A stretch of 64,000 nt of DNA from assembly GCF_001435295.1 (NCBI RefSeq), contig NZ_CM003594.1, positions 2,433,361-2,497,360 on the forward strand, in the 5' to 3' direction. Positions 28,162 to 41,051 of the stretch are shown piece by piece; position 1 is the first letter of the stretch, and each line of letters begins with the position of its first letter. Origin of the DNA: Psychrobacter sp. P11F6. Lineage in GTDB: Bacteria > Pseudomonadota > Gammaproteobacteria > Pseudomonadales > Moraxellaceae. The position numbers were made by a program, and so were the translations under genes. The notes under the pieces were generated by a model. It ran no database searches, was not told the origin of the DNA, and saw nothing but the letters and a program-made list of their open reading frames with translations.

Positions 28162-31100
28162 ATGATTGTCACCTTTGTTTCGCAATGTGAAAAAAAGTCG
28201 CTCAGTCGCACGCGGCGTATTCTAGACGCGTTCGCCAATCGTATCGGGGATAATGTTTGGCAAACGGCAATTACCGAAGATGGTCTTACGACTGTCAAGA
28301 AACTGCTGCGCAAATCAGCGACCAAGTCAACGGCAGTAAGCTGTCATCGTAATAAGACGCGCCAGCTGACGGAGCTGGTATGGGTTGTGGGTAATAAGCG
28401 TAAGTTTAATGAGATTGGCGTGGTGCCAGTTAATCGAACCAAACGAAACATTCTACATAGCGAATGGGAAAATGACTGGAGTTACGCCAGTAGTATTCAA
28501 ATTATCGCTACGATTGCTGCGCTACTTCATGATATCGGTAAATCAACCATTGGCTTTCAAAATAAACTTATAAAAGGCAGTAAACAAGGTGACTCTTATC
28601 GTCATGAGTGGATATCACTAAAGCTTTTTGAGCTAATCATTAAAGATTGCAACACAGATGAGGCATGGCTTGATCGATTAATGCATCTGGACAAATGGTT
28701 AGAGGTCAATGATATAGAGAAACTGATCTCTATAGCTAATCAAAACACTGTAGATATAGAACCAATGCCACCGCTAGCTCAATGGGTCGCCTGGCTGATT
28801 GTCACTCATCACCGCCTGCCACCAGCTGATAAAGTATTTCATTCCTCTACTGCCATTCAGCGTATGCAGCAGCCTAAAGAAACCTCGCTTTATAAGCGAA
28901 ACTTACAGCAGTTTTATGGTCACTTAATACCTTTTGATTATTGGGTAAAAAATCCTAAATCGCTAGATGAGATGACCCAAGCTCAACTTAAAAGCTTTTG
29001 GCAATTCGAGCACTTAGTTATTAATAGTTCTGCTTGGCAAAAAAATATTAGACGCTGGTCTAAAAAAGCGCTGAACGATTCTACCCTCCTTCAGATTAGC
29101 CAACAAGCTGTTGAATCTCACAAATCTATCAGCGATCCATTTTTACTACACTTATCACGTCTATGCTTAATGGTAGGCGATCACAATTATTCTAGTCTCA
29201 AAGAAAACGACTCGCGCTGTATAACCGTCAACAGCCAATTTAAAAAACTAGCGGCTAATACGGATCGTACTGCTAACATACCCACAGTTAAACAATCACT
29301 TGAAGAGCATTTACTAGGTGTAGCTACTTTCACAGCTCATTTCTGCCGAGCGCTACCTATTATTGCTAATGAAATGCCGACGCTACGTAATCATGATCCT
29401 CTAGCCAAACCTACTGGCATAGAGCGTTTCAAATGGCAGAATCAAGCGTTTAAGATGTGCTACGGCTTGCAAGAATCCACACGCGAACATGGATTTTTTG
29501 GGGTAAATATGGCATCAACAGGTGCAGGCAAAACGATTGGTAATGCTCGCATTATGTACGCTTTAGCTGACCCAAAAAAGGGCGCACGTTTTACTATTGC
29601 CTTAGGTCTGCGGATTCTAACTTTACAGACAGGACTTAGCTTTCGTAAGGACTTGAAATTAAAGGGTGATCAATTAGCAATACTTGTCGGTGGCAGCGCC
29701 AATAAAAAACTGTTTGAGCTGGCCTACGATAATAAGACTAATGACATTACCGAGATCATCGGTGAGCATGCAAATGATAAAGAGCCTGATAATGAATCAC
29801 AGACATTCGGCAGTGAATCTAGTGAGGATTTAATAGATGAAATAGTCGATAGCGATATTGATTATCAAGATTATGAAGCGCTTAATCTTGATACCGTTAT
29901 TGCCAGCTCAAAAGCGCGCGATCTTATCTTTGCGCCTATTGTGACCTGTACTGTTGACCATATTATTCAAGCCAGCGAATGCAAACGTGGCGGTAAATAT
30001 ATAGCACCAATTCTGCGATTACTTAGTAGTGACTTGATACTTGATGAGCCTGACGATTTTGACCAAGCGGACTTGCCTGCGCTTTCTCGACTCGTGCATC
30101 TTGCTGGACTATTTGGCACACGAGTACTGCTATCTTCTGCCACTTTGACCCCTGATTTAGTAACAGGGTTATTTGAAGCTTACATGGAAGGTCGGAAACT
30201 GTTTAACCAAAGCCAAAACAAATCAATGCCTAGAGTGGTCTGTGCATGGTTCGATGAACAACCTAAAGCGATGATGTCTGAGCAATGTGCTGATATGGAT
30301 GAATTCCAAGACAAGCATAAACAATTTTGCGATAAACGTGCCAGCTATTTAGCCAAGCAGCCTGTTAGACGTCAAGTAGAAATACTGCCGTTTTCAGTAT
30401 TATATACTCAGGATAAAGCCACACAGTTTTATAGCGCTTTAGCACAAACGATAGTCGATGCGGCTGTCAATTTGCATGATAAGCATCATGAAGTGCTGAC
30501 TAATTCGGATAAGAAAAACTCTGTTGTAAACGCACAAGTGAGTATCGGACTGGTACGCGTTGCTAACATTAACAACATTACTAATATTGCCATGCAGCTT
30601 TTTAAAGCAGATAGCATCACTGTGCCAGATGATACGGTAATACATGTGGTGTGCTATCACGCTAAGCAGCTATTACTACTACGTAATGCTTTAGAAAATA
30701 AGCTCGATAGAATCCTAGATCGTAGCGACAATAAAGTTAGCGTGCTTAATCATCCTGAAATTAAACAAGCCATTACCAATTATCCTACTAAAAATCATAT
30801 TTTTATAGTACTCGCTACTCCTGTCGCCGAGGTCGGACGCGATCATGATTATGATTGGGCGATAGTCGAACCTTCTTCTATGCGCTCTATTATTCAGCTG
30901 GCTGGGCGTGTTTGGCGTCATCGGCCTAATAAGGTTGCTAACACACCTAATATTTTATTGTTGCAATACAATATCCGTTACTTCAAACATCCAAATGGTC
31001 AGCGACCTATTTTCACTTATCCAGGATTTGAGACCGCGTTATTCAAGCCGCCAAGCTACGATTTGAATGAATTAATGACTCAAGAGCAGTTAGCGCACGT

Positions 31101-31650
31101 TGATGCCAGACCTAGAATTTTATCTTCTGAAAGTAAAACAATAGAGACGTTAAGCGACCTTGAACATCACGTTATGCAGCATTTATTAAATAGCCCCAAG
31201 CTTAACTACGTTAATGCCTATTGGGATAGCAAGGCTACGGCTAATCGCACCCATACACATTTGCAGCAAATCAGTCCTTTTCGGGCAGGAACGCCGCAAG
31301 ATGATTGGTTATTAATTCCGCGAATGGTCAGCGATGACGAAGATATCGATCAACCAACCACTGGCTTTGATGCGTACTATAGCGAGGATGTCTTCGAAAA
31401 AGGCTTAGCCAAATCTACCCCTCAGAATAAAACCATTCAACCACTAGCCTTTAGTTTTGAGCATGTACAAATAAAGCCTTGGTTGATTACTTCACTAAAT
31501 GATGTCTTACAAGATTTACAACTCTCACATTCTGATAAAAGCATGCGCTCATTAGCGATTACTTATTCATCGGTATCGCTTGATAGCATCAAGTCTAGCA
31601 ATAGTAGCGGCTGGACGTTTCATGAGTTTTTTGGATTTGTGCGTGGATAG
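28162..31650 (+). CDS. cas3: Type I-F fused Cas2/Cas3 helicase-nuclease
   Basis: Carries out target DNA unwinding and degradation after Cascade binding and, through its Cas2 part, spacer acquisition. In the 1162 residues I see an N-terminal Cas2-like domain (MIVTFVSQCEKKSLSRTRRI, to about 95), an HD nuclease with LLHDIGKST (about residue 122), YRHEW and VTHHRLPP, and a superfamily 2 helicase with Walker A STGAGKTIG (about 452), DExD-like LDEPDDF (about 626), SSAT and motif VI QLAGRVWRHR (about 911). All key residues seem intact, so the enzyme should be active. After its stop comes a 270-bp gap with a crRNA-like RNA gene. Confidence 0.97.
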   Translation: MIVTFVSQCEKKSLSRTRRILDAFANRIGDNVWQTAITEDGLTTVKKLLRKSATKSTAVSCHRNKTRQLTELVWVVGNKRKFNEIGVVPVNRTKRNILHSEWENDWSYASSIQIIATIAALLHDIGKSTIGFQNKLIKGSKQGDSYRHEWISLKLFELIIKDCNTDEAWLDRLMHLDKWLEVNDIEKLISIANQNTVDIEPMPPLAQWVAWLIVTHHRLPPADKVFHSSTAIQRMQQPKETSLYKRNLQQFYGHLIPFDYWVKNPKSLDEMTQAQLKSFWQFEHLVINSSAWQKNIRRWSKKALNDSTLLQISQQAVESHKSISDPFLLHLSRLCLMVGDHNYSSLKENDSRCITVNSQFKKLAANTDRTANIPTVKQSLEEHLLGVATFTAHFCRALPIIANEMPTLRNHDPLAKPTGIERFKWQNQAFKMCYGLQESTREHGFFGVNMASTGAGKTIGNARIMYALADPKKGARFTIALGLRILTLQTGLSFRKDLKLKGDQLAILVGGSANKKLFELAYDNKTNDITEIIGEHANDKEPDNESQTFGSESSEDLIDEIVDSDIDYQDYEALNLDTVIASSKARDLIFAPIVTCTVDHIIQASECKRGGKYIAPILRLLSSDLILDEPDDFDQADLPALSRLVHLAGLFGTRVLLSSATLTPDLVTGLFEAYMEGRKLFNQSQNKSMPRVVCAWFDEQPKAMMSEQCADMDEFQDKHKQFCDKRASYLAKQPVRRQVEILPFSVLYTQDKATQFYSALAQTIVDAAVNLHDKHHEVLTNSDKKNSVVNAQVSIGLVRVANINNITNIAMQLFKADSITVPDDTVIHVVCYHAKQLLLLRNALENKLDRILDRSDNKVSVLNHPEIKQAITNYPTKNHIFIVLATPVAEVGRDHDYDWAIVEPSSMRSIIQLAGRVWRHRPNKVANTPNILLLQYNIRYFKHPNGQRPIFTYPGFETALFKPPSYDLNELMTQEQLAHVDARPRILSSESKTIETLSDLEHHVMQHLLNSPKLNYVNAYWDSKATANRTHTHLQQISPFRAGTPQDDWLLIPRMVSDDEDIDQPTTGFDAYYSEDVFEKGLAKSTPQNKTIQPLAFSFEHVQIKPWLITSLNDVLQDLQLSHSDKSMRSLAITYSSVSLDSIKSSNSSGWTFHEFFGFVRG

Positions 31651-31677: not shown

Positions 31678-31781
31678 AAAAAAGCACGGCGTTAACCGTG
31701 CTTCTGATAGAAGCCACCTAAGCGGTGGTGAAAGGTAATACCAGTTATAACATTTTCTAAGCCACCTAAGCGGTGCAATCA
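31678..31781 (-). ncRNA. crRNA-like regulatory RNA (CreR/CreA-type mini-CRISPR)
   Basis: Two degenerate CRISPR repeats sit on the minus strand, 48 bp apart (31754-31781 and 31706-31733). Each matches the array repeat at 20 of 28 positions. The first keeps the hairpin and an exact 3' CTTAGAAA, the 5' handle of a I-F crRNA, but is degenerate at its 5' end. The second keeps the 5' part and the hairpin with a compensated extra pair but has lost its 3' end. Between them is a 20-nt spacer, ATGTTATAACTGGTATTACC. Upstream, an extended -10 TGTTATAAT (31791-31783) would start RNA about 31776. Downstream, a stem (31683-31689 with 31696-31702) followed by T's ends it about 31678. No cas gene product is encoded here. 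The role as guide for Cascade at the csy1 promoter is inferred. Confidence 0.85.
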
Positions 31782-31828
31782 AATTATAACAGAGCGTCTT
31801 TTATAAATATAACCAATATATTTAATTT

Positions 31829-31850
31829 TATAATACTAGTTATAACATGG
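31829..31850 (+). promoter_or_regulatory. csy operon promoter -10 and pseudo-protospacer for the crRNA-like RNA
   Basis: TATAAT at 31829-31834 is the best -10 for csy1; the -35 is poor. On the minus strand 31850-31849 reads CC, the type I-F PAM, followed by ATGTTATAACTAGTATTA (31848-31831). This equals the spacer of the RNA gene at 31678-31781 over positions 1-11 and 13-18. Position 12 differs, but every sixth base of a type I guide is flipped out and unpaired. Binding of Cascade here would cover the -10 and start site of csy1. Confidence 0.8.
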
Positions 31851-31930
31851 TTTACTTGTTAATCATTATATGCTTTACTATTGTAAATAAAAAACTTTTG
31901 TGCATTATAAAAGGAGCTAATCTTGACTGA
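31847..31930 (+). CDS. Possible 27-codon leader ORF upstream of csy1
   Basis: ATG at 31847 opens MVYLLIIICFTIVNKK, a hydrophobic then basic peptide of 27 residues ending in TGA at 31928-31930, overlapping the csy1 start (TTG at 31923). It would begin about 6 nt after the predicted transcript start, with no ribosome site. It could be a coupled leader peptide, a small CreT-like toxin repressed by the crRNA-like RNA, or chance. Low confidence. Confidence 0.25.
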   Translation: MVYLLIIICFTIVNKKLLCIIKGANLD

Positions 31931-33302
31931 TATATCCCCAGAGCTAGCAAGCAGTGTTGTCAAAGCATTCCTTATTAGCCAGTACGATAAAAAAACGGAT
32001 ACTGAGCAAAAACAGCTCGCTAAAGCAATAGAAAGTAATGATTTTGACAAAATTACAGAATTGAAAGCTACTTTAGCTGACGCCCAAGAAAAATATAGTG
32101 TCGCCACTTGGATTCCAGATGCTGCAACGCGTATGGCAACCCAATTGAACTTCGGCACGCATATATCAAAAGGCGTGCATCCTGATGCCAAAGGCGATAA
32201 TGTTAGCTTTAACTTAGATACTCACTTACCGCAGACTATCGTAGGTACGCATTCGATAGACAGCAGCTATATCGATGCTAATGGAAATGCCGCTGCACTG
32301 CCCCTTGCAGCCTTTTTTGATTTTGAGGTGGATGAGACGACTAAAATACGCGACCTTATTCTAGCGGATAATGCTGACTTTATTGCTACGCTTGCAGGCG
32401 ACCAAGCTTTGGCAAAGACTTATCAACAGGCTTTTAAAAAGGCGCTACAAAATATTATTACCACTCCTATAACTCATGAGCGTAATAAGCAAACGCTATG
32501 GGTGACTAACGCTTATGAAAGCACGGATATTGAAGCGCTTGATTATATAAATGTGATTCCACTTTATCCCTCTGTGCTTACTCATGAAGTTTATCAACGC
32601 ATTAATAACCTTAAATTTTCTGAAGAAAATAAAGCTGCTCGCGATAACCGTTTTAAAAAAACCGCTGAACAGCGGCCTTATGTCACTTTAAACAATTTAG
32701 CAACGCTTCAGCTTGGCGGCACAAAACCTCAAAATGTCAGCTTACTCATGAGTAAACAAGGTGGTCGCAACTACCTTTTGTCTTCGCTTCCACCCATCAT
32801 CAAGCAAGAGCGTGCGTTTAAACTATCCAAATTTGCCAATAGTATTTTTGGCACCAGTATGGAATATAACGCGCGTAAAGAGATTCAAAGTATTTTTAAA
32901 TCTATCAAAGACACTCGTAATATCGTCGATGTTAGAGATGCGCGTAAACTTGCTATCGATGAAGTGCTTTATCAGATATTTGCAGCCGCAGAAGATATCC
33001 GCAGCTCCATGCCAGCAGGCTGGTCAAAAGACTATGATCTTGATCGCACAGAAAAGCTTTGGCTTGATCCAAAACGTGCTGATTTAGAGGGTGAAGAAGA
33101 ATTTAAAGCAGAGCGTGAACAAGATGATGCTTGGCATAGTCAAATCGTTCATCGTTTTGCCCGTTGGCTTAATACTTTGATGCAAGCCGAGTTTAAGGAA
33201 ATTGCCAGTGACTTTGGCGACGGGGAACATTTAGACTGGGAGCGTGAGATTGAAGATATGCAAAAACGCTATGAGCGCGCAGGCAAAGGAGTATTTTTAT
33301 GA
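31923..33302 (+). CDS. csy1: Type I-F Cascade large subunit Csy1 (Cas8f)
   Basis: PAM-recognising subunit of the Csy surveillance complex, paired with Csy2 at the crRNA 5' end. The start is a TTG at 31923 with AAGGAG at 31911-31916. The 459-residue protein matches Csy1 in layout: a hydrophilic N-terminus (KATLADAQEKYSVATWIPDAA), TQLNFGTHISKGVHPDAKG, VIPLYPSVLTHEVYQRINNL, TKPQNVSLLMSKQGGRNYLLSSLPP and the Arg/Lys- and Trp-rich C-terminal helical bundle. It is first of csy1-csy2-csy3-cas6f, read from a promoter that appears to be a target of the crRNA-like RNA. Confidence 0.93.
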   Translation: MTDISPELASSVVKAFLISQYDKKTDTEQKQLAKAIESNDFDKITELKATLADAQEKYSVATWIPDAATRMATQLNFGTHISKGVHPDAKGDNVSFNLDTHLPQTIVGTHSIDSSYIDANGNAAALPLAAFFDFEVDETTKIRDLILADNADFIATLAGDQALAKTYQQAFKKALQNIITTPITHERNKQTLWVTNAYESTDIEALDYINVIPLYPSVLTHEVYQRINNLKFSEENKAARDNRFKKTAEQRPYVTLNNLATLQLGGTKPQNVSLLMSKQGGRNYLLSSLPPIIKQERAFKLSKFANSIFGTSMEYNARKEIQSIFKSIKDTRNIVDVRDARKLAIDEVLYQIFAAAEDIRSSMPAGWSKDYDLDRTEKLWLDPKRADLEGEEEFKAEREQDDAWHSQIVHRFARWLNTLMQAEFKEIASDFGDGEHLDWEREIEDMQKRYERAGKGVFL

Positions 33303-34270
33303 GCCGTATAGACGATGATAACGATATTGGCGTAGTTGGCTATTTGCTATTTAAGAAGGTCATTATTGATGGGGCAAATACTATCTCAAGTCCACTGACT
33401 TATGGTTTCCCAGCTATTACTGGATTCTTAGGTAGCTTTCATGCGATGTCACGCAAGATGGCGGATGATGAGCAATTATCAAGTGTTTCACTAGGCGGTG
33501 TGTTGCTAGCTTGCCATGACTGTCAGCCGCAAATGTATCGCCCTAACACTTATAACAATTACACTTTTAATCAAACACGCAACCCTATCAAAAAGGACGG
33601 CAAAACAGCATCTATTATTGAGGAAGGCAAATGCCGCTTAGTCATGAGCTTTGTAGTTGAAGTACTGGCAGACACTAACTTAACGGCTGAGCAGCAAGCG
33701 TCTGCCATACAAAAAACAAAGCAGTGGATTCAGCAACAACGTATGGCTGGTGGCAGTGTGCATGGACTAGCTCGATTTGAGCCAGTACAGTTTTTTGATA
33801 GTAGTGACATTAGTGCCGTCATACCACAGCTGTTGCCTGCTTTTGTACTGATGGACGCACAAGATGAGTTTGCTCAAATTATAAATGAGGTACAAAAAGA
33901 CAATCCAGATGCAACGCCTTTAGATGCCTTGATAGACGTTTGTGCGCTGTATCAAATTCCTGAAACTAAGCCTAATGGCGAGACCAAATGGTCAACTATG
34001 TCGCGTAAAAGTGGTCACGGTTGGCTTGTGCCCATGCCTATAGGTTACCAAGGTATGTCCGACTGTTATGAAGCAGGCATCATGCAAAACGTGCGTAACC
34101 CTGAATATTCTAGCCAGTATGTCGAAGCCATTTATAGCCTTGGAAAATGGGTTTATCCGCAGCGTTTAAATCGCATCGGTGGTGAGCATGATATTGCCAA
34201 TGCGTTTTGGCGTTATCGCTACGATGCCGATGACTCTGTTTATCTAGTCACTCAGCAGCAAGATCTTTAA
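33299..34270 (+). CDS. csy2: Type I-F Cascade subunit Csy2 (Cas5f)
   Basis: Forms the crRNA 5'-handle-binding tail with Csy1. The 323-residue protein overlaps csy1 by 4 bp (ATGA), so their 1:1 synthesis is likely coupled. Family-like features: GYLLFKKVIIDGANTISSPLTYGFPAITGFLGSFHAM at residues 14-50, an RRM-like start, then GLARFEPVQFF and HGWLVPMPIGYQGM near the C-terminus, plus RNPEYSSQYVEAIYSLGKWVYPQR. Length is normal for Cas5f (about 320). Confidence 0.94.
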   Translation: MSRIDDDNDIGVVGYLLFKKVIIDGANTISSPLTYGFPAITGFLGSFHAMSRKMADDEQLSSVSLGGVLLACHDCQPQMYRPNTYNNYTFNQTRNPIKKDGKTASIIEEGKCRLVMSFVVEVLADTNLTAEQQASAIQKTKQWIQQQRMAGGSVHGLARFEPVQFFDSSDISAVIPQLLPAFVLMDAQDEFAQIINEVQKDNPDATPLDALIDVCALYQIPETKPNGETKWSTMSRKSGHGWLVPMPIGYQGMSDCYEAGIMQNVRNPEYSSQYVEAIYSLGKWVYPQRLNRIGGEHDIANAFWRYRYDADDSVYLVTQQQDL

Positions 34271-34286
34271 ACTTATTTTTAATTTT

Positions 34287-34304
34287 TAAAACTATCCAGT
34301 TTTA
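34287..34304 (+). promoter_or_regulatory. Small hairpin between csy2 and csy3
   Basis: TAAAACT (34287-34293) and AGTTTTA (34298-34304) form a 7-bp stem with a 4-nt loop in the only real gap (75 bp) of the csy operon. It lies before the gene whose product is needed in six copies. It might stabilise or process the csy3 message; there is no proof. Confidence 0.3.
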
Positions 34305-34345
34305 TAACAAATGCAATTTAATTTTTTATTCTCATGGAGAACATT

Positions 34346-35362
34346 ATGTCAAAATCAGCCCTAAAAACTGCATCCGTACTCGCTTTTGAGCGTAACTTAG
34401 ACGTATCAGACGCCTATCTGTGGCAGACCGATAGTCAAGCAGCAGCTTCGCCCTCCCCTGTGGTTATTAAAGAAAAATCCGTTCGTGGTACGATTAGTAA
34501 TCGCTTAAAAAACGCTATTACCAATGACCCTGCCAAATTAGATGCTGAGACTGAAAAAGCCAACTTACAAAAAGTAGATTCAGCATCATTAGATGAAAAT
34601 AACGATACTTTAGTCGCACGCTTCAGTCTCAAAGTTCTGCCTTTTACTGGCAAACCTAACGTCTGTAACGACCAAGACTATCAACAAGCTTTAGAGCAAG
34701 TCGTTACTGACTATATTAGCACTCAGGGTGTCGATGAGTTGGCACGACGCTATGCGATTAACGTGCTAAATGCGCGTTGGTTATGGCGCAACCGTGTGGG
34801 CACTGAAAGTATTAAAGTCACCATTAAGTGCAATGGACAAACTATTACCATTGATGATGCAAAAGCTTATGGTCTCAAAGACTTTAATAGTGATGATGCT
34901 CATATCAAACAAGTGGCTGATTGGATTAAAGCGGGTCTAAACGGTGATGAGTTCATTATTTTATACGTAGAAGCACAAGCCATCATCGGTTATGGTCAAG
35001 AGGTTTACCCCTCACAAGAACTGATACTCGATACCGGCAGTAAAAAGAGTAAGGTGCTTTACCGCGTTAGTGATAAGAAAGGCTCTGAGGACAATGCGGG
35101 TATGCACTCTCAGAAAGTCAGCAACGCAATTCGTACTATTGATACTTGGTATCCTGATGCCCAGTTCCCTATTGCTATCGAGCCTTACGGTGCTGTGACG
35201 ACATTAGGCACGGCATTCCGCCAGCCTAAAGCTAAGATGGATTTTTATAGCTTATTTGATAATTGGGTTTTAAAAGGTGACGCACCAGATGTTGAGCAGC
35301 AACATTATGTAATGGGTGTGCTGATCCGTGGCGGTGTGTTTGGTGCCAGTGGCAAGGAGTAA
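34346..35362 (+). CDS. csy3: Type I-F Cascade backbone subunit Csy3 (Cas7f)
   Basis: Six copies form the helical backbone that holds the spacer part of crRNA. I start at 34346 (MSKSALKTASVLAFERNLDVSDAYLW), which has GGAGA 6 bp upstream; an in-frame ATG 12 bp earlier overlaps that site. The 338 residues match Cas7f in length and in SVRGTISNRLKN, LNARWLWRNRVGTESIKV and the C-terminal EPYGAVTTLGTAFRQP and HYVMGVLIRGGVFG. A 75-bp spacing to csy2 with a hairpin may allow higher expression. Confidence 0.95.
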   Translation: MSKSALKTASVLAFERNLDVSDAYLWQTDSQAAASPSPVVIKEKSVRGTISNRLKNAITNDPAKLDAETEKANLQKVDSASLDENNDTLVARFSLKVLPFTGKPNVCNDQDYQQALEQVVTDYISTQGVDELARRYAINVLNARWLWRNRVGTESIKVTIKCNGQTITIDDAKAYGLKDFNSDDAHIKQVADWIKAGLNGDEFIILYVEAQAIIGYGQEVYPSQELILDTGSKKSKVLYRVSDKKGSEDNAGMHSQKVSNAIRTIDTWYPDAQFPIAIEPYGAVTTLGTAFRQPKAKMDFYSLFDNWVLKGDAPDVEQQHYVMGVLIRGGVFGASGKE

Positions 35363-35365
35363 GGT

Positions 35366-35983
35366 ATGAGTAATTCAACTTTAAACCTTACCCATTACCA
35401 AGAAATAACTATCATCCCTGATCCCGAGATTGCGCCTTACTTTATTTGGAGTAAGCTCTTTAATCAGCTGCATATTGCTCTAGCGGCATTGAAAAATGAA
35501 CACGGTATCGACTCCATAGGTGTCAGCTTCCCTGATTATCATTACGATAATAAAAATGAGAAATCATCTAAGTTGGGATTAAAACTACGCCTTTTTGCGC
35601 CAAACCAAAAAAACTTAGACACCCTAAACCTGGATAAATGGCTGTCACGACTGTCAGATTATGTGCATGTTAAAGGTATTAAAGAAGTCGGTGATAAAGC
35701 GACTGGTTATGTCAGTGTGCAGCGTTACCGATTTAAACCAATTGATATACAAGCACAGACATTGGCAGATAAGTTAAAAGTCAGTTATGAGGAGGCGATG
35801 GTCACTGTCGCCAAACGCAAAAAAGAGATGGCATTGCCATTCATTCAGATGCGTAGTCATACCAACAATAGTAATTACCGTTTAAGCATTTTACAGTCGC
35901 CTTGTGATAACTCTCAAGCTGGTAGCTTTAATACTTATGGCTTAAATGGTATGCAAGACACGGTTACCGTTCCACATTGGTAA
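35366..35983 (+). CDS. cas6f: Type I-F crRNA endonuclease Cas6f (Csy4)
   Basis: Cuts the pre-crRNA at the base of each repeat hairpin and stays bound to the 3' stem. The 205-residue protein begins after a 3-bp gap from csy3 and shows the Cas6f pattern: ITIIPDPEIAPYFIWSKLFNQLHIAL with the likely catalytic His (LHIAL), GVSFPDY, and the C-terminal RNA-binding region YEEAMVTVAKRKKEM with basic residues, MALPFIQMRSHTNNSNYRLSI. Slightly longer than the Pseudomonas protein (187). Confidence 0.94.
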   Translation: MSNSTLNLTHYQEITIIPDPEIAPYFIWSKLFNQLHIALAALKNEHGIDSIGVSFPDYHYDNKNEKSSKLGLKLRLFAPNQKNLDTLNLDKWLSRLSDYVHVKGIKEVGDKATGYVSVQRYRFKPIDIQAQTLADKLKVSYEEAMVTVAKRKKEMALPFIQMRSHTNNSNYRLSILQSPCDNSQAGSFNTYGLNGMQDTVTVPHW

Positions 35984-36160: not shown

Positions 36161-39100
36161 CTTCATCACCGCATAGGTGACTTAGAAATGCTTAGAATTA
36201 ACCAGCGATCTTGATTCAGTCTTCATCACCGCATAGGTGACTTAGAAAAATCCGAACCATTGCGCGTCCAATACGCTCCACTTCATCACCGCATAGGTGA
36301 CTTAGAAACATTTCTTATCACTAGATTGCCCTGACGCTTTCTTCATCACCGCATAGGTGACTTAGAAATGAGCCAGATCCTATCTATGCTCCTAAGCCTA
36401 CTTCATCACCGCATAGGTGACTTAGAAATTGATTATTCGCACTTAGTTAGTGCAGTTGACCTTCATCACCGCATAGGTGACTTAGAAAGCCCTGTCATGG
36501 TGTTAGCGCACTATGTCGGGCTTCATCACCGCATAGGTGACTTAGAAATAGCGATATGCCCGGTCGCCCCGGTGCTGTCCTTCATCACCGCATAGGTGAC
36601 TTAGAAACATCGCGGTAAGGGTTATTGCGAGTGGTGCCACTTCATCACCGCATAGGTGACTTAGAAATTTAACTGTTGAATGCCGTGAAAGTCTCATGAC
36701 TTCATCACCGCATAGGTGACTTAGAAAGTTTAACAGACGGTCGAATTATTAATCATTGACTTCATCACCGCATAGGTGACTTAGAAATTTGATTAACTTA
36801 TCGGTACTCATAATAATATCCTTCATCACCGCATAGGTGACTTAGAAATTGCTACTTTAAATAGCGGTGAAAGTGGTCTTCTTCATCACCGCATAGGTGA
36901 CTTAGAAACGAACAAATCGGATTAGCCTCACTGATTTCAACTTCATCACCGCATAGGTGACTTAGAAACACGACCCTCGGCTTCGGAGGTCGCGGTCATG
37001 CTTCATCACCGCATAGGTGACTTAGAAATAGACGAAGCGATACACGACAAGGCAGCCTACCTTCATCACCGCATAGGTGACTTAGAAAAGCTTACGGTTG
37101 CATTGGCGTTATGTCACGCACTTCATCACCGCATAGGTGACTTAGAAAGTGGTGATTAGCGGTGATGCGGTATCGGAAGACTTCATCACCGCATAGGTGA
37201 CTTAGAAAAACTATTTCAAGGCTGGTCGGCTCTGTGTCCTCTTCATCACCGCATAGGTGACTTAGAAACAAAGCGGATGATGCAGCCGACGCTTGATAGC
37301 CTTCATCACCGCATAGGTGACTTAGAAAATGTTTCCCGTCTACATCCAGTACGTGATGGTCTTCATCACCGCATAGGTGACTTAGAAATGTCTCAGTTAT
37401 ATGTATGATTTTAGATTGGTCTTCATCACCGCATAGGTGACTTAGAAAAACCGAGCCTGATGACATTGTTGCTTTAAATGCTTCATCACCGCATAGGTGA
37501 CTTAGAAAAACATCATCCGCCACTGGCTTAATCCAATTTACTTCATCACCGCATAGGTGACTTAGAAAAATCAGCAGATAGTCCAGTTGATACGAGGCAC
37601 CTTCATCACCGCATAGGTGACTTAGAAATTCGCTGTCTCGACAGCAAGTGCTGCGATAGCCTTCATCACCGCATAGGTGACTTAGAAAATAGCTTTAGCA
37701 ACAGCCTGCTGAATAGCCATCTTCATCACCGCATAGGTGACTTAGAAACGCAAGCCCGTTTGTATGAAGGCGCAATTTGCGCTTCATCACCGCATAGGTG
37801 ACTTAGAAAGTAATCAACACACGTGACGCTTGCAGTAAGTCCTTCATCACCGCATAGGTGACTTAGAAAAGCCAATGCAGTAGCAATCACCTCATCAACA
37901 ACTTCATCACCGCATAGGTGACTTAGAAAAATGACTGGCTATCCATACTTTACGATACCGACTTCATCACCGCATAGGTGACTTAGAAAACTTTCAATGT
38001 CTCGTCACCAGCTCTCAGCTCCTTCATCACCGCATAGGTGACTTAGAAAAAATACTTACACTGCATTTGTGTTTAGCGGAACTTCATCACCGCATAGGTG
38101 ACTTAGAAATCCATGATAAATTGCTTAACATGATTAGCCTCCTTCATCACCGCATAGGTGACTTAGAAAACCTTCCCAGATCTTAACGCCTGCTGTGTAA
38201 TCTTCATCACCGCATAGGTGACTTAGAAAAGTACCGTTAGACCCACTCATGCCAGCACAAGCTTCATCACCGCATAGGTGACTTAGAAAATTATTCATCC
38301 CCCCCCTATCTCTACACGCTCTCTTCATCACCGCATAGGTGACTTAGAAATGATCAACACGGTATGAAGTCACAACAAAACCCTTCATCACCGCATAGGT
38401 GACTTAGAAATTTCAGGTTAGTCATAGCTTCAACACTTTTGTCTTCATCACCGCATAGGTGACTTAGAAAGCCATAATGCCGAGAAAGATAAACGAAAGT
38501 GTCTTCATCACCGCATAGGTGACTTAGAAATGTACCTGCTGATGCTATGGCTGAACCTATAACTTCATCACCGCATAGGTGACTTAGAAAACTGTAAAGC
38601 GGTTCTTAGCCCATTCATTGTACTTCATCACCGCATAGGTGACTTAGAAAACTGACCACGTTCAACATCCTCAATGTAGTAGCTTCATCACCGCATAGGT
38701 GACTTAGAAACTAATGACGCGACTCAGCAAAATAAGTTTGAGCTTCATCACCGCATAGGTGACTTAGAAATCCCACTGCTCAGGTGTTTTCTGTTCCTGC
38801 TGCTTCATCACCGCATAGGTGACTTAGAAATACTGAAGTAGATGCAATAACTCAAAATCTGCCTTCATCACCGCATAGGTGACTTAGAAACGTAACAATA
38901 TCGTCAGGCATTGTAAGAAACACTTCATCACCGCATAGGTGACTTAGAAAAATCAAAACCGATATTGTCCAGCTCACCAAAACTTCATCACCGCATAGGT
39001 GACTTAGAAAAAAAGATGATACGTCTTTACCGTACTTGTCCTCTTCATCACCGCATAGGTGACTTAGAAATAATAGATTGATTATTTCCTTATAAGTGTG

Positions 39101-41051
39101 ACCTTCATCACCGCATAGGTGACTTAGAAAAACAACGCATTCGCTTTGAGCCTATCTTTGAGCTTCATCACCGCATAGGTGACTTAGAAAGTAACCCGTC
39201 ATCGTACCACCAACACCAGCGGCTTCATCACCGCATAGGTGACTTAGAAAAACTGTGGTCGCAGCGACGACTTACGAGCTAACTTCATCACCGCATAGGT
39301 GACTTAGAAAACCAAGTTATCCAGCCCAACAAGAACCCTCAACCTTCATCACCGCATAGGTGACTTAGAAATGTCATGAGCCAACCTGTCAAGTCATCCT
39401 CATCTTCATCACCGCATAGGTGACTTAGAAATTAAGCATGATTGCACCAATGCCACCACTAATCTTCATCACCGCATAGGTGACTTAGAAAGTAGTAAGG
39501 CGCTACTGGCAGATAATCACCTGCTTCATCACCGCATAGGTGACTTAGAAAATTAGAGTGAACAGTGGTTATGCCCCCTGGATCTTCATCACCGCATAGG
39601 TGACTTAGAAATCATACATAAAAGCGATGATGAGAGATATAACCTTCATCACCGCATAGGTGACTTAGAAAAACCAAAGAAGGCATGGGGCAGGGTGATT
39701 TAGCTTCATCACCGCATAGGTGACTTAGAAAGTAGTCAGATTGTGAGTTTCCTAATACTGTCACTTCATCACCGCATAGGTGACTTAGAAAACAACACCG
39801 CTTATAGATACTTTGCTAGTATGCTTCATCACCGCATAGGTGACTTAGAAAACTCACGTAGCTCATCGATGCCCATTTCAGCACTTCATCACCGCATAGG
39901 TGACTTAGAAATTGTATTACGCCAGCCCCTGCAAAATTAGCCCCTTCATCACCGCATAGGTGACTTAGAAATTATTTTAAAAGCAGCTCAAAGGATCACA
40001 AATCTTCATCACCGCATAGGTGACTTAGAAAATCCAGCCAGTCGTCACCGTCAGCGTCTCATCCTTCATCACCGCATAGGTGACTTAGAAAAAATCAGCA
40101 GCACCTCAAACATCTGCTCGTCACTTCATCACCGCATAGGTGACTTAGAAACTACACCTACGTACTGGGATATGTAATGCGTACTTCATCACCGCATAGG
40201 TGACTTAGAAATGCACGTTGGGCGCGGTCATGCAACAATAGCGCTTCATCACCGCATAGGTGACTTAGAAAACTGGCAATCCGCTATGAAGATGGCTTTG
40301 CTTCTTCATCACCGCATAGGTGACTTAGAAAAAAATACCGATTACCTCGGACTTAATGCCATTCTTCATCACCGCATAGGTGACTTAGAAATAACGCCCC
40401 TGCATGGCAGACCGATATCTTAGCTTCATCACCGCATAGGTGACTTAGAAAGTATAAATTTAGAAAATATATAACCATTCTATCTTCATCACCGCATAGG
40501 TGACTTAGAAAATGCGACGACACAAAAACGTGCTCGTTATCTTCTTCATCACCGCATAGGTGACTTAGAAATATTTGAAGTCTCTTGATTTAGAGAGGCG
40601 TCTCTTCATCACCGCATAGGTGACTTAGAAAAATAGTGAAATCGTAAGTATTTAAGCTGTCGACTTCATCACCGCATAGGTGACTTAGAAAATTTCAGAC
40701 AACAAGCCGTACTTGGTTGCTATCTTCATCACCGCATAGGTGACTTAGAAAGAAATGTCGGTCTTTAGCCCTTATTTGACGTACTTCATCACCGCATAGG
40801 TGACTTAGAAAACTGCCAGTCGTCTTGCTGATTCATGCGGTCACTTCATCACCGCATAGGTGACTTAGAAAATATCACGATAGTTTCAACGATATACCAA
40901 GCTCTTCATCACCGCATAGGTGACTTAGAAAGTTACGGCATCCGTGATGCTCGATGAAAAAATCTTCATCACCGCATAGGTGACTTAGAAAAAACAGGAA
41001 CGCTTAACAGTAAGGTAAATCCACTTCATCACCGCATAGGTGACTTAGAAA
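36161..41051 (+). CRISPR. Type I-F CRISPR array, 82 repeats and 81 spacers
   Basis: The repeat is 28 bp: starts CTTCATCACCGCATAGGTGA and ends CTTAGAAA; TCACC/GGTGA form the Cas6f hairpin around GCATA. Repeat starts fall at 36161, 36221 and so on to 41024. Counting one start per 60-bp step with a net shift of 3 gives 82 repeats. Spacers are 32 bp except one of 31 (36549-36579) and four of 33 (the first at 36788-36820). All repeats look identical, including the last. The repeat orientation and the leader place new spacers at the left, next to cas6f. I could not match spacers to phages by eye. Confidence 0.98.

Follow-up and report, generated by a model that had tools for sequence, protein, structure and literature searches.

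CreR, the cas-regulating crRNA-like RNA, is treated as established in reviews (available parts of PMC12737573 and PMC12948488) and is named for types I-B, I-E and V-A in the accessible portion of PMC13131331. Such elements are known to have degenerate repeats (PMC9458426, in part). In subtype I-F, the CreA mini-array of Acinetobacter is situated in the gap between cas3 and csy1; in the sections of PMC10097628 which describe it, CreA has two psi-repeats and a 20-nt guide with mismatches at positions 6, 11 and 18, represses a promoter and lowers the target transcript about 7-fold, and Csy4 is needed (strain AYE, with psi-R2 replaced). According to the same sections its guide tolerates changes at positions 10, 12, 19 and 20 and needs position 1 only partly, and the target lies downstream of the start of a toxin RNA and is followed by a 33-bp ORF with a Shine-Dalgarno sequence. 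Racr RNAs, as excerpted in PMC10651486, are phage-borne solitary repeats that block immunity. Self-regulation of this kind is already known, with CreR published and a CreA mini-array published from the same I-F gap. Mini-arrays partly matching cas8 and cargo promoters were reportedly also described by Shmakov et al. in 2023 (NAR 51:8150), with an I-F1 mini-array said to have been tested; by that account, the element described here is of the same kind and the same subtype.

The present element lies in a 64,000-nt stretch of Psychrobacter DNA, called the window. It shares with Acinetobacter CreA the cas3-csy1 gap, two psi-repeats, a 20-nt guide and a CC-flanked partial target, but its target adjoins the probable csy1 -35 and no Shine-Dalgarno ORF was found; position 1, which Acinetobacter CreA needs in part, was never mismatched in the 20 family pairs and 7 outside pairs described below. 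With CreR it has in common a predicted crRNA-like RNA partially complementary to its own cas promoter, but it belongs to subtype I-F, which is not among the types named in the accessible portion of PMC13131331. As in CreR, two repeat-like sequences surround a spacer outside the array and the spacer partly matches a site beside a PAM in the promoter of its own cas genes (a promoter placed by conserved register, not by transcript); the match is kept in relatives despite changed letters, except in locus L054 and the weak loci given below. An earlier note on this DNA had drawn the analogy with CreR and CreA, and it is apt: the I-F Acinetobacter CreA from the same gap represses a promoter (PMC10097628, same sections). 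With phage Racr RNAs the element shares the character of a CRISPR-repeat mimic outside an array, and one narrow mini-array pattern had no exact match in viral contigs. The element did not occur among the matches listed in a literature search naming Psychrobacter.

Layout of the mini-array between cas3 and csy1

The type I-F gene set of the window (cas1, cas3, csy1, csy2, csy3 and csy4 by PADLOC) comprises a complete effector set, and all five named relatives of its Csy1 are from Psychrobacter. On the plus strand, cas3 (cas2-3 of type I-F; 28162..31650, PADLOC Cas23f, E-value 0) is the upstream neighbour of the mini-array. A gap of 272 bp separates it from csy1/cas8f (31923..33302, TTG start, PADLOC Cas8f, E=3.4e-118), the first gene of the presumed regulated operon, and csy2, csy3 and csy4 (cas5f, cas7f and cas6f, PADLOC) extend over 33299..35983. 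The main CRISPR array (36161..41051, plus strand), with 82 identical repeats in the sequence, is the presumed source of competing crRNAs. Rfam at gathering thresholds gave one tRNA and no other match in the 64-kb window.

On the minus strand of the gap, an extended -10 is followed by repeat 1, a 20-nt spacer, repeat 2 and a terminator-like stem with T6. The two degenerate repeats that the earlier note had placed around the spacer lie at 31781-31754 (psi-R1) and 31733-31706 (psi-R2), each 20/28 identical to the array repeat; BLAST of the gap against the main array matched repeat 1 over 27 nt at 93%. The earlier note had repeat 1 keep both hairpin and handle. Its CTTAGAAA handle is intact, but the stem (GCACC/GGTGG) has only 4 bp, the outermost pair, which adjoins the presumed Csy4 cut, being lost (G opposite G). 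Repeat 2 has a 5-bp stem (CCACC/GGTGG) with a compensated C-G pair, as had been proposed. The guide ATGTTATAACTGGTATTACC between them (31753-31734) matches 31831-31848. Because 76 of the 81 spacers in the main array are 32 nt long (4 are 33 nt and 1 is 31 nt), the guide is 12 nt short.

The promoter and terminator elements expected on either side of the mini-array were found, the extended -10 (TGTTATAAT) at 31791-31783 and the intrinsic-terminator-like stem (AAGCACGG/CCGTGCTT) with T6, the end of the RNA gene, at 31703-31678. By eye, the -10 motif is also seen in L008 and L013, and a stem with T run resembling that of the window in L008, L012 and L013. Transcription of the mini-array would be expected to start near 31776. 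As the design recurs in relatives in other letters, the tiny RNA gene is very probably real. The terminator-like stem is present in the predicted fold of the 103-nt RNA, in which repeat pairs with repeat instead of forming two hairpins. A simple promoter and terminator scan of the window listed neither the conserved csy1 promoter nor the mini-array terminator; its sole promoter-like site was at 31862-31833 on the minus strand, with 1.6 expected by chance.

The guide and its target in the window and in relatives

The spacer was said to equal a CC-flanked site at positions 1-11 and 13-18, and it does so on the minus strand at 31848-31831, next to a CC PAM at 31850-31849, with 17/18 positions matched and the mismatch at position 12. 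When random Markov spacers were scored on the CC sites of both strands of the 272-bp gap, 0/20,000 reached 16/18 (best 15/18). Over 1000 nt, a score of 17 was reached by 1/18,000 random spacers, an AT-repeat-like one, and a chance event of that kind was also seen in cross-locus scoring (1/300). In the own genome the CCATGTTATAACTNGTATTA pattern fits exactly at the target site only; the next best were the spacer itself, which differs at 2 PAM positions only, and three sites with 3 mismatches. The reversed pattern, used as control, also had 1 site within 3 mismatches. The target site is also the sole match in the genome to the PAM and seed, CCATGTTNTAACT. Scored on its own gap the window's guide reached 17, and none of the other 24 gaps gave it more than 13. 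Copies of an 18-nt piece of the spacer in 6 viral contigs adjoin neither a repeat nor a CC and were attributed to chance.

Relatives were surveyed at three levels. In the genus, 20 of 105 genomes had a Csy1 match, at 21 places, and a mini-array lay within 1500 nt at 10 of these. Since none was seen over that distance at the other 11 places, 5 of which are weak Csy1 matches, the mini-array is not essential. In the family, taken to be Moraxellaceae, 71 of 348 genomes had a Csy1 match at 74 places, 69 of which were examined and 5 left out; 25 guides were taken from hairpin-plus-handle candidates, partly by judgement. A class-level draw, scanned with a stricter handle, gave Csy1 matches in 32 of 369 genomes and a mini-array in 7 of 29 loci besides the window, with 4/34 places left out. 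The second repeat, missed by the scan, was read by eye in L034, L035, L036, L046 and L049, and the weak candidates checked for targets were those of L009, L049 and L054 only, all three loci being kept. The first, extra 32-nt spacers of L012 and L009, a repeat of L040 without second spacer and the second repeats of L041, L042 and L044 were set aside, and no convincing target was found for these six. The class-level candidate L095 was chance-like and had no target.

When the 32 guides (25 from the family, 7 from other class members) were scored without PAM demand, the unique best nearby match was CC-flanked in 26, or in 26/39 if the seven set-aside guides and repeats are scored as misses. Guides without such a match were those of L012, L029, L032, L034, L046 and L102. 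The own target outscored every unrelated gap in 24 of the 25 family guides, with a tie for L054, and the margin was just one point in L018, L029, L032, L034, L046 and L049. The number of chance spacers equalling the observed score, per 300, was 10 for L029, 7 for L032, 12 for L054 and 3 for L034. A convincing target is absent in L054, and targets are weak in L029, L032, L034, L046 and L102. The earlier note had proposed comparing related loci for maintenance of the spacer-target match: apart from these exceptions it is mostly kept, in that the letters differ, the site is CC-flanked and the mismatches fall at 6, 12 and 18. In L037, L038, L039 and L046 the best CC-flanked target is on the opposite strand to that of the other loci; L046 has a better match, without CC, if no PAM is demanded. 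Judged by the spacing of the hairpins, the inter-repeat guides of L029, L031 and L032 are just ~13-16 nt long.

Type I effectors flip out every sixth base, and the mismatch at position 12 had been ascribed to this property. The 20 family pairs have mismatches at 40/60 of positions 6, 12 and 18 and at 27/300 elsewhere (Fisher 1.3e-20), and the 7 pairs outside the family at 16/21 and 6/105 (Fisher 1.6e-11), values which treat positions and related loci as independent. No mismatch falls at positions 1-5 or 7 in the family; outside it there is none at 1-5 and one at 7. The 20 pairs leave out the near-duplicates L006, L034, L035 and L044 as well as L054, addition of which gives 40/63 against 33/315 (Fisher 3e-18), and they count both L008 and L012, which have an identical 18-nt guide. 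For the class targets, the figures reported come from an unweighted recount, because the initial ranking was blind to 6, 12 and 18 and so favours the result. The internal mismatch of the window is of the sixth-position type. Base pairing holds in 98% of the stem cells of repeat 1, as judged from 21 of the 32 sequences, and both sides of the pairs vary; most of this pairing was a requirement of the scan itself. In these 21 sequences pairing and covariation were above all 500 shuffles, and pair types were fewer than in 497/500.

Position of the target relative to the probable csy1 promoter

Twelve csy1-targeting loci aligned at the PAM have a common promoter, in which the -35 follows the PAM immediately and precedes an extended -10 by ~17 bp. 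In the window, this register over 12 loci places the probable csy1 -35 (TTTACT) directly after the PAM at 31851..31856 and the probable extended -10 (TGCTTTACT) at 31871..31879 on the plus strand, with 17-bp spacing and a leader of ~37 nt. The window's own -35 and -10 are both weak (TTTACT and TTTACT). In the register score over the 12 loci, from which L004, L006 and L035 were left out and in which L013 and L049 were unscored, offset 0 was the best of 105 offsets (8.75, mean 5.31, sd 0.76); L004 has the same register by eye. In 7 further loci outside the family offset 0 was again best, less clearly (6.79, mean 4.73, sd 0.72, runner-up 6.36). Low scorers in the exact register were L009 (5), L017 (4) and 3 of these 7 loci.

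With the conserved csy1 promoter starting immediately behind the PAM, the Csy complex would probably dock just upstream of the csy1 -35 and not on the -10. The proposal that the target covers the csy1 -10 is therefore unsupported by the comparison of loci; the TATAAT read as such is present in the window at 31829-31834 and is absent in that register from L008 and L012.

Proposed regulation of the csy operon and competing explanations

It is highly likely that the mini-array is a CreR-type regulatory mini-CRISPR, the RNA of which guides the Csy complex in repressing the operon that encodes it. From the layout and the match we infer how transcription, Csy4 processing, loading, repression and release would proceed at the Psychrobacter locus. 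A leftward RNA of ~95-100 nt would run from near 31776 to near 31678, and Csy4 cleavage after the repeat hairpins would release a short crRNA composed of an 8-nt handle and the 20-nt guide. The Csy complex carrying this crRNA would bind the CC-flanked site at 31831-31850, where the match is observed. Its Csy1/Csy2 end would then lie at the csy1 -35 and block RNA polymerase, for which Acinetobacter I-F CreA is the precedent, and productive Cas3 cleavage would not be expected from so short a guide with mismatches. By analogy with published CreR, the free complex would limit its own operon, which could be released by array crRNAs competing for Cas proteins or by anti-CRISPRs that remove the Csy complex. 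Control of csy1 may be partial, because read-through from cas3 is possible.

The RNA could instead be the antitoxin half of a CreTA module, repressing a small toxin RNA (CreT) between target and csy1, with csy1 a bystander. In Acinetobacter I-F CreTA, too, a 20-nt guide and a CC site lie in this gap in divergent layout (PMC10097628, same sections), and a 27-codon ATG frame opens at 31847, within the window's target site. Provided that the conserved promoter is correctly placed, with its ~37-nt leader, this ATG is upstream of the csy1 transcription start. Between target and csy1, the 15 csy1-targeting loci searched, the window included, had no start codon preceded by a Shine-Dalgarno-like 4-mer other than starts in frame with csy1. 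The Acinetobacter target is downstream of the transcription start whereas that of Psychrobacter is upstream of the conserved -35, and the gap is 272 bp in the window against ~400 in Acinetobacter CreTA. Such a module is thus improbable, though a variant with a toxin RNA lacking a reading frame would be compatible with these observations. As for a protein toxin of the CrePA type, the window has no ORF of at least 40 aa in the stretch from target to csy1.

That the element is a decayed array, now inert, with a chance or fossil self-spacer, would agree with the degenerate repeats and the broken stem pair of repeat 1, but spacer and target co-change across loci, positions 1-5 are unmismatched in the 20 and 7 pairs while mismatches cluster at every sixth position, and repeat-1 stem pairs change on both sides (with most of that pairing demanded by the scan); we consider this very unlikely. 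Equally unlikely is a guide serving targeting or spacer acquisition instead of repression. The mini-arrays of L009 and L012 have an added repeat and 32-nt spacer, as from Cas1-Cas2 action, but a guide causing cleavage of its own chromosome should harm the cell, and the promoter register points to regulation.

Read as a regulatory mini-CRISPR, the element supplies a clean natural example, amenable to testing, of a CRISPR effector presumed to control the I-F operon that encodes it, and its relatives offer many spacer-target pairs with different letters. The docking register and sixth-position drift make such elements findable from sequence alone and predict which base changes would matter and which would not. 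As a tentative and rather doubtful extension, a docking rule may apply to I-F systems across Gammaproteobacteria, in which the PAM abuts the csy1 -35, the Csy1/Csy2 end occupies the -35 and the guide drifts at 6, 12 and 18; under it, a DUF2188 gene behind the guided promoter (L004, L006) would be cargo whose expression is turned on by anti-CRISPR removal of the complex.

Additional genes and repeats accompany several mini-arrays. In L004 and L006 the guided promoter is separated from csy1 by a small gene (~90-329 nt upstream of the Csy1 match); the protein of L004 is DUF2188 (PF09954, E=1.3e-19), and guide and target match at 20/20 in L004 and 19/20 in L006. The extra repeat and 32-nt spacer of L012 and L009 are on the promoter side of the mini-array, as if inserted by Cas1-Cas2, and these spacers had no exact match in viral contigs. 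The mini-array of L009 and its target have between them a BrnT-type toxin gene (PF04365) and a neighbour without Pfam match; the target stays 115 nt from the start of the Csy1 match. In L015, L017 and L018 the mini-array is separated from cas3 by HigB-like and HTH (HigA-like) genes on its own strand, assigned by Pfam for the L017 pair only.
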